A stretch of DNA of 64,000 nt, from positions 310,001 to 374,000 of the forward strand of contig NZ_CP014230.1 of assembly GCF_001553625.1 (NCBI RefSeq), given 5' to 3'. Source of the DNA: Desulfomicrobium orale DSM 12838 (GTDB lineage: Bacteria; Desulfobacterota; Desulfovibrionia; Desulfovibrionales; Desulfomicrobiaceae). The number at the start of each line of letters is the position of its first letter. Position 1 is the stretch's first letter. This document shows positions 8,034-9,921 of the stretch, in pieces. The position numbers and the translations under genes were made by a program. A model generated the notes under the pieces. The model searched no databases. It had not been told where the DNA came from and saw only the letters and a program-made list of their open reading frames with translations.

Positions 8034-8576
8034 CTAGACCAGAGTATCGATTAATACGCCCTGCATGTTCATCTGCGTGTGCAGGGCGACAGCGTTGGCC
8101 GCGAAAACCTGTTCGTTTTCGATCATCCGGACCATTTCCGCGGCCAAGTCTGTGGCCGAAGCTTCGGCCAGCCACTCCTCCCGGAGGGTCTTTTCCGCAA
8201 AATAGGCTTCGTCGGCCCGGCGGATGCGCTCGTCTTCGGCGCGAAGAGCCTCTTCCCGCCTGCGGTTTTCTCCGGCCTGACGCAGACCTTCTTCCGCATG
8301 GCGTTCCCGCACGCGGCGGCCAACGGCCTTTTCCTCTTCCAGGTGGCGTTCTTCCCTTTCCTCGCGACGCAAAGCCTCACGGCGGCGCTCCCGCTGCCGT
8401 GTTTCATGCGAGCCTTCCCGCACAATGCGCTGCACGCGCACACCCTCGCCATCGGGGCCGGTTTCAAAATCCACCCGGCTGGGCAGAAATCCTTCGGTAT
8501 TCACATTGGCCACGTTGTTGGCCGAAACCCGCTGGGCCATACCCACGGCATGCAGAGCCTGAATGTTCGGCGTCAT
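8034..8576 (-). CDS. Flagellar basal-body rod-like protein with charged helical insert
   Basis: 180 residues. The N-terminus (IQALHAVGMAQRVSANNVAN) carries the ANNVAN motif of flagellar rod/hook proteins, and the C-terminus (MIENEQVFAANAVALHTQ, then LIDTL) matches the matching FlgB/FlgC/FlgG C-terminal helix. Between them, about residues 50-140 are almost only Arg, Glu, Ala and Leu, the composition of a single alpha helix or coiled coil, in place of the beta-rich domain expected in FlgC. A GGAGG site precedes the start at 8576. It lies away from any flagellar operon. It is probably a rod-related structural or accessory protein; role uncertain. Confidence 0.75.
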   Translation of the reverse strand: MTPNIQALHAVGMAQRVSANNVANVNTEGFLPSRVDFETGPDGEGVRVQRIVREGSHETRQRERRREALRREEREERHLEEEKAVGRRVRERHAEEGLRQAGENRRREEALRAEDERIRRADEAYFAEKTLREEWLAEASATDLAAEMVRMIENEQVFAANAVALHTQMNMQGVLIDTLV

Positions 8577-8731
8577 GAAGACCTCCGCTGGTTCAATACC
8601 GGTTTTCCTACTCGTTGCTTATCCATCCCGTCAAACACGTATCGTGATACCGGTATGCCATTATTCATTGCGGAAACGGAAAAGACTTCCGGCCGCCATT
8701 CGGACAAAATTCCCCGCCTGTCCGCAGCGGC

Positions 8732-9502
8732 CTATCCGTCCATCTGATCGATACAGGCGTAGGCGCTGTGATTGTGAATGGATTCCATCGACTCCACTTC
8801 CACCCGGAACCCCCGGACTCTGGGATGCGCGGCCAGCCGGGAAGCCGCGTTTCTGACCACATCTTCCACGAATGCCGGAGCCGCAAAAGCCGCCTCGGTC
8901 ACGAATTTTTCATCCTCGCGCTTGAGCAGGGCATACACCGGCGAAGAACCCGACTCCCGGCCGATGTCGATGAGATCTTCCAGCCAGAGCATGCCGGAGC
9001 ATCCGGCCTCCATGCGGATCATGGCCCGCTGGCTGTGCGCACCCTCTCGGGAAATGGCCTTGGAGCAGGGGCATACGGTCATGACCGGCACTTCCACGCC
9101 CAGGGCCAGCTCCGCCTCCGCATCCCGCATGGTGCCCCGCAAAAAGCAGGCATAGTCCACAAGGGCAGGAATGCCCGTGGCCGGGGCCCGGTGTTCCAGA
9201 AAGTAGGAGAACTGAAAGCACAGGTGCGCACTGCGGGCCTGCAGGCGGTCCCGCAGGTCGTGCAGCAGCCGCGTGCAGCCGGGCATGTCCAGAGTGTCCA
9301 TGCCCCGCAGGGCCTCCAGAAAGCGGCTCATGTGCGTGCCTTTGAACCGGGCCGGAAGGTCCACGCTCAGATCCACGCGGGCCACGGTCCGCTGCTCCCC
9401 CCTGGCCCTGTCGCGCACGGTCAGGGGAATGCTCAGGCTTTTCACGCCCACGCGGTCGATGCGCAGGGGAACGTCGGCCGGGCCGCTCTGCACGTCGCGC
9501 AT
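8732..9502 (-). CDS. folE2: GTP cyclohydrolase FolE2
   Basis: 256 residues matching the type IB GTP cyclohydrolase (COG1469): opening [11 protein letters not shown], the metal-binding/catalytic Cys region [12 protein letters not shown] at about 147-158, SQRAMIRM and the C-terminal SIHNHSAYA. It converts GTP to dihydroneopterin triphosphate for folate or queuosine pathways and uses metals other than zinc more readily than FolE. Its start codon overlaps the stop of nikR by 1 nt, so translation is coupled. Confidence 0.93.
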
Positions 9503-9921
9503 CAGGAAAGATCCTGCCCGGTGGTGGCCAGACTGATCTTGCCGTGCTTGACCCCCTTGGTGGACATGAGGCGCTCGGCCGTGGCTTTTATGGTCTCGCC
9601 CGGGCCGCGCAAAACCAGCACTTCCAGGCAGTTGTGGTGATCCAGATGGATATGCAGGGACGTGACGATGACATCCAGGGCGGCATGCTGGATTTCGGTT
9701 ATTTTCTGGGCCAGATCCGACTGGTGATGGTCATAGACCAGAGTCAGGGTGCCGACCATCTCCTTGCCGGGATTCTCCCATTCCTTCTGCACCAAAGTGT
9801 TGCGGATAAGGTCGCGGATGGCTTCGGACCGGGTCTGGTAGCAGCGCTCCTCGCACAGGGCGTCGAATTTCTCCAGCAGATCCGAATCCAGCGATACTCC
9901 GAAGCGTATTGTTTCCCCCAT
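9502..9921 (-). CDS. nikR: Nickel-responsive regulator NikR
   Basis: 139 residues: ribbon-helix-helix DNA-binding part ([15 protein letters not shown] ... [10 protein letters not shown]) and the C-terminal ACT-like nickel domain with the ligand run [14 protein letters not shown], which supplies the His-x-His and Cys ligands. With nickel bound, NikR represses nickel uptake genes. It precedes folE2 in the same transcript. No clear NikR palindrome was found next to it, so its operator is probably elsewhere. An AAGGAGG site precedes the start. Confidence 0.93.

Follow-up and report, generated by a model that had tools for sequence, protein, structure and literature searches.

An orphan flagellar axial-type family of the Desulfovibrionales and its variant with a predicted Arg/Glu-rich helix in Desulfomicrobium orale

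Introduction

The flagellar rod is usually described as four rod proteins and an adapter. In the 64,000-nucleotide stretch of Desulfomicrobium orale DSM 12838 DNA analysed here (the window), one gene encodes a protein in which flagellar axial-type termini enclose a long segment rich in arginine and glutamate, which raises the questions of what kind of protein this is, where the charged segment came from and whether either has to do with the flagellum. The first-pass annotation had taken the gene for that of a rod-like protein whose central domain was replaced by about 90 alternating Arg and Glu residues, and had entertained both an extension or regulation of the rod and a non-flagellar structure built with rod-type termini.

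Results

Reading frame and conserved termini

The open reading frame, whose product we call the mini-rod protein, starts with ATG; its parts and neighbours are listed in Table 1. Both termini exceed the curated Pfam cut-offs, with Flg_bb_rod (PF00460) matching residues 14–30 at 22.7 bits (cut-off 20.7) and Flg_bbr_C (PF06429) matching residues 138–176 at 24.8 bits (cut-off 23), so the rod-protein termini originally read from the sequence stand up to scoring against rod-protein profiles. A whole-genome search with Flg_bbr_C recovered the locus among other flagellar proteins. Pfam matches to DDRGK and Draxin lay under the cut-off and are due to the charged composition.

High-GC sequence and long overlapping opposite-strand ORFs would be compatible with a decaying or misannotated gene, that is, with chance termini flanking a low-complexity reading frame. 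Against this, both termini pass the curated Pfam cut-offs, and orthologues keep their gene order across the Desulfovibrionales. The independently assembled sister genome (G014) encodes the protein without indels at 93% identity, and neither it nor the present genome (G000) shows a stop or frameshift. Both termini are under strong purifying selection, with dN/dS of about 0.06 for the N-terminal and 0.04 for the C-terminal part, which indicates that the gene is read in the right frame and that the long ORFs overlapping it on the other strand are spurious. The indel-free sister genome and the selection on the termini rule out a spurious ORF or assembly artefact, and the selection and synteny data refute a decaying or misannotated gene, a reading that we regard as highly improbable.

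Table 1. Features of the mini-rod locus, with positions in the window
Feature	Position	Strand	Basis
Mini-rod gene, 180 aa, flagellar axial-type termini and expanded linker	8034..8576	(-)	ORF, Pfam, sister genome, AlphaFold2
Ribosome-binding site GGAGG	8582..8586	(-)	Read off sequence
Residues 1–54: D0-type N-terminal helix 5–23, ANNVANVNTxGF motif, beta strands 33–39 and 46–53	8415..8576	(-)	Pfam Flg_bb_rod, AlphaFold2, dN/dS about 0.06
Residues 57–140: Arg/Glu-rich linker expansion, predicted continuous helix, 84 residues	8157..8408	(-)	
Residues 144–179: D0-type C-terminal helix; Pfam match residues 138–176	8040..8147	(-)	Pfam Flg_bbr_C, AlphaFold2, dN/dS about 0.04
folE2 (GTP cyclohydrolase I type 2), conserved upstream neighbour	8732..9502	(-)	Pfam GCHY-1, synteny
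nikR, conserved upstream neighbour	9502..9921	(-)	Pfam NikR_C and RHH_1, synteny
Receiver-like/TPR protein, 459 aa	6456..7835	(-)	Adjacency only in this genome and sister

Distinction from known rod and hook proteins

The genome, a single contig of 2.78 Mb, encodes its own FlgB, FlgC, FlgF, FlgG and FlgK together with two FlgE-like proteins. A misplaced flgC is ruled out, since the genuine flgB and flgC sit together elsewhere in the genome; FlgC, at C1:1390739–1391161, scores 160.4 bits against TIGR01395. The mini-rod protein was absent from the matches to that FlgC model at E up to 1 (curated cut-off 102.1 bits), and reached 28.0 bits against the FlgB model TIGR01396 (cut-off 59.05). Against full-length models, it scored 31.6 bits for FlgG (cut-off 252.75), 26.5 for FlgF (178.5) and 36.6 for FlgE (400), and it attained the cut-off of no NCBIfam model. 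It is thus a protein distinct from FlgB, FlgC, FlgF and FlgG. The two FlgE-like hook proteins of this genome are separate, lying at C1:844886–845017 (L003) and C1:1126488–1126622 (L002) in ORFs of 528 and 614 aa.

Alignment to FlgG locates the linker within the axial-protein architecture. The family profile matches the FlgG of the same genome at residues 24–60 and 224–268, with the D1 region between. Domain D1 of Salmonella FlgG comprises residues 91–222, and the domains of axial proteins are arranged radially (PMC5288503). Because the matches flank D1, the mini-rod linker occupies the D1 site, and given the radial arrangement, material added there should point outward.

An orphan family that accompanies flagella

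The mini-rod protein is a member of an unnamed orphan family of the Desulfovibrionales that consists almost solely of D0-type terminal helices and has no central domain. The 82 distinct family sequences compared have a median length of 126 aa, and none exceeds 142 aa outside two insert-bearing lineages; 12 of 13 members match both Pfam terminal models. Most members from the same genus share 53–70% identity per terminus with the mini-rod protein, the most divergent (G008/G009) 48–55%. Since typical relatives are of about 100–142 aa with a short linker, the proposal that a central domain had been replaced does not hold for a family that lacks one. Similar D0-only proteins of 99–101 aa were also seen beyond the Desulfovibrionales (L083, L108, L119 (Acidovorax); L085, L088 (Desulfurellales); L111 (Sulfurimonadaceae)).

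A profile search returned matches in 249 of 297 Desulfovibrionales genomes, of which 197 contain a genuine member when these are defined by E below about 1e-11 (our own threshold, counted by hand). In this sample, the family is present in about 196 of 249 FlgG-positive genomes vs 1 of 48 FlgG-negative ones (Fisher p about 2e-25); because shared ancestry is left out of account, the genomes are less independent than this p-value implies. The sole FlgG-negative carrier (G075) has 15 FlgG candidates under the threshold, and a split gene is possible there. About one-fifth of FlgG-positive genomes have no clear mini-rod member, which implies that the protein is not essential to the flagellum. A non-flagellar structure is unlikely, because the family is nearly confined to FlgG-positive genomes and its gene usually adjoins that of a flagellar sigma-54 regulator. 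A literature search by family name returned nothing beyond one table entry.

Mini-rod is not part of the main rod operons. In several f5 genomes (e.g. G244, G148, G231), ~20–28 kb separate it from flgG on a shared contig.

Gene neighbourhood and a sensorless activator

Comparison of 20 loci gave the usual order nikR, folE2, mini-rod, a sigma-54 activator of ~345 aa and a large TPR protein of ~1,000 aa, with the activator downstream of mini-rod on the same strand and within about 2.6 kb in 14 of them. The activator carries a GAFTHA motif and, in most loci, a GTCA-N6-TGAC operator just 5' of its gene, both of which match the published description of Desulfovibrio vulgaris DVU2894, a FlrA/FleQ-like protein that is predicted to act in the flagellar cascade and is devoid of an N-terminal domain (PMC4641369). 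From locus number and gene order, the D. vulgaris orthologue of mini-rod is probably DVU2893. This gene is annotated as 'flagellar basal-body rod protein' with mRNA measured at about 9,400, and its protein was undetected in the proteomic data cited in PMC3114432.

Ancestrally, mini-rod was thus preceded by nikR–folE2 and followed by the gene for a DVU2894-type sigma-54 activator. The window keeps the upstream half of this arrangement (nikR–folE2–mini-rod), of which folE2 is not part of the function proposed below, while the activator orthologue, 84% identical, is now far from mini-rod at C1:1560594 and is distant in the sister genome as well. The activator and the large TPR protein relocated together (C1:1560594–1564725; L156, L160), and mini-rod stayed behind folE2. 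A scan of the vicinity of the mini-rod gene for a DVU2894-type operator or a sigma-54 promoter gave none above chance, and a ACCGGTAT direct repeat 5' of the gene was set aside, as the sister genome does not keep it.

Downstream in the window, the gene instead borders one for a receiver-like/TPR protein. Its response-regulator match of 23.3 bits lies under the Pfam cut-off of 30.2, and it may thus be a degenerate receiver. Elsewhere in the genus its orthologues are found at unrelated loci, so the adjacency is recent; the protein is probably unrelated to mini-rod, and a functional link was rejected as ancestral. The response regulator/TPR gene that the first-pass annotation noted beside mini-rod is not an ancestral neighbour, and a bearing of it on function is not supported.

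The main rival to a structural role is that the family acts as an export-gated regulator or assembly factor, and not as a subunit: the mini-rod protein would remain inside the cell for as long as the export apparatus is off, affecting the sensorless DVU2894-type activator in a FlgM-like manner. It would account for the proximity of the two genes in most loci examined and for the location of mini-rod outside rod operons, and the missing N-terminal domain of DVU2894 (PMC4641369) points to the involvement of a partner protein or of a regulatory cascade. However, an operator belonging to the activator separates the two genes, so that co-transcription is not required, and mini-rod has been retained in this genome and its sister though the activator is far away. 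Moreover, the conserved residues of the family are those common to assembling axial subunits, whereas binding to the activator is hypothetical. We consider export-gated regulation unlikely, while ranking it first among the rivals.

Origin, composition and predicted structure of the insert

Of the 76 residues at positions 55–130, 21 are Arg and 20 are Glu. In the family survey, this expansion occurs only in the present genome and its sister, and the comparison of sequences identifies it as the short family linker grown by about 60 residues. The insert is of recent origin, in the lineage of these two genomes. Its length is equal in both. A search with TRF for a tandem-repeat origin at the DNA level found no repeat.

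AlphaFold2, run on 13 sequences that did not include the sister genome, predicted a helix at residues 5–23, strands at 33–39 and 46–53, a long helix at 57–140 and a final helix at 144–179. Mean pLDDT was 88, with about 94–98 over most of the long helix, and pTM was 0.46; charged helices readily receive high confidence from AlphaFold2. The 31 best Foldseek matches were all to flagellar rod, hook or hook-filament junction structures, with E-values (0.02–0.6) that are weak because only the termini align. The model agrees with the initial suggestion that the composition is that of a long single helix. The supposed run of about 90 alternating residues was accurate as to an Arg/Glu-rich segment, while the predicted helix has 84 residues and its Arg and Glu come in blocks.

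Helix 57–140 has no proline and 3 glycines, is 58% charged and carries a net charge of −1. No heptad register places more than 6 hydrophobic residues in the 24 a/d positions, and a coiled-coil reading was rejected on this ground. Opposite charges at i+3/i+4 number 37 vs 27.8 expected from composition-matched shuffles, a modest excess (p = 0.016), and 40 in the insert of the sister genome (p = 0.002, shuffles); a charge periodicity of 6–9 residues was not significant (p = 0.14). The i+3/i+4 pattern is consistent with a single alpha helix, though not strong evidence for one by itself.

Selection on the insert and a second insert-bearing genus

Between the two sister genomes, dN/dS rises from the low values of the termini to about 0.82 in the insert. 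The insert shows 10 nonsynonymous and 3 synonymous codon changes, the termini 3 and 17 (Fisher p = 0.0007, one genome pair). The sequence of the insert drifts, while its length is the same, its charge composition nearly so and no proline has been gained. This pattern, from 13 changed codons in one genome pair, fits a spacer or strut and also a tolerated insertion.

An extension at the same linker site is also present in genus g41, where all 8 genomes examined carry a different insert that brings the protein to 173–183 aa. It comprises several dozen residues conserved in sequence within the genus, with a motif around NYDTA.AQD (L074, L166–L173), and the linker has a dN/dS of about 0.04–0.12, indicative of purifying selection. 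AlphaFold2 predicted just a 36-residue helix for it, at low confidence. Independent extension of the linker site has thus occurred at least twice.

These data bear on the second-ranked rival, in which the mini-rod protein is a functional axial subunit and the Arg/Glu insert a tolerated, neutral low-complexity expansion, possibly disordered once assembled. A dN/dS of about 0.8 vs 0.04–0.06 in the termini, the restriction to two sister genomes and a salt-bridge spacing just modestly above shuffled sequence are all what neutrality would produce. Yet the insert has kept its length, nearly kept its charge and gained no proline, and a continuous helix is predicted by AlphaFold2; furthermore, the independent g41 insert, being under purifying selection, implies that the site can accommodate functional additions. 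We hold neutral expansion to be improbable.

Discussion

Proposed function

We judge it somewhat probable that the mini-rod protein is exported and becomes a minor axial component, with its helix extending outward like a strut, a reading in which we infer export, assembly, location and the strut role alike. What the data establish are the axial-type termini and the purifying selection on them, family membership, the co-occurrence with flagella, the synteny with a predicted flagellar regulator gene, the recent origin of the insert and the prediction of its helix. The protein would leave the cell via the flagellar type III apparatus, like other axial proteins, and would pack through its two terminal D0-type helices into the rod, or into a rod junction, as a minor subunit. 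In this lineage, the enlarged linker would form one alpha helix of ~84 residues, which at 0.15 nm per residue comes to about 12.6 nm, and this Arg/Glu helix would serve as a rigid charged strut directed radially away from the axis. A wider and distinctly doubtful extension is that the flagella of Desulfovibrionales commonly contain an extra axial subunit, that outward modules have been added at its D1 site on at least two occasions, and that the charged helix seen here would touch the periplasmic rings or peptidoglycan and alter rod behaviour in one small-genome lineage.

The orphan family is of more interest than the Arg/Glu helix, being widespread, tied to flagella and essentially unstudied in the literature searched. 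An axial-type protein encoded in ~4/5 of the sampled flagellated Desulfovibrionales, beside a predicted flagellar regulator gene and nearly absent from that literature, constitutes a directly testable gap in the description of the rod. The Arg/Glu helix elaborates a known kind of part in one narrow lineage, a variation that is real but modest. The variant would nonetheless show that the D1 site of axial proteins accepts a simple rigid rod instead of a folded domain, and it would be a useful natural means of probing what the portion of a minor rod subunit that faces outward does.

Comparison with known systems

Without its insert, the mini-rod protein is similar in size to FlgC and FlgB, with which it shares D0-type termini, the lack of a large D1 and weak sequence similarity; it differs in falling under the cut-off of every FlgC and FlgB model. 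FlgG, FlgF and FlgE provide the best profile matches of its terminal regions, but the mini-rod protein is without domain D1, bears the linker or insert at that site and aligns to them through the termini alone. DVU2893-type proteins carry the same annotation, and their genes adjoin that of a DVU2894-type activator, as seen from locus number and conserved gene order. Other Desulfovibrionales orthologues have the mini-rod termini in common, whereas their linkers span a few dozen residues and contain no Arg/Glu helix. The insert-bearing mini-rods of g41 place their extra residues at the same linker site, although these are unrelated in sequence, low in charge and conserved between species. Finally, the insert resembles SAH/ER-K domains in being long, proline-free and rich in Arg and Glu, in its predicted monomeric helix and in the lack of a hydrophobic heptad stripe; it departs from them in being Arg-rich with almost no Lys and in its modest i+3/i+4 enrichment.
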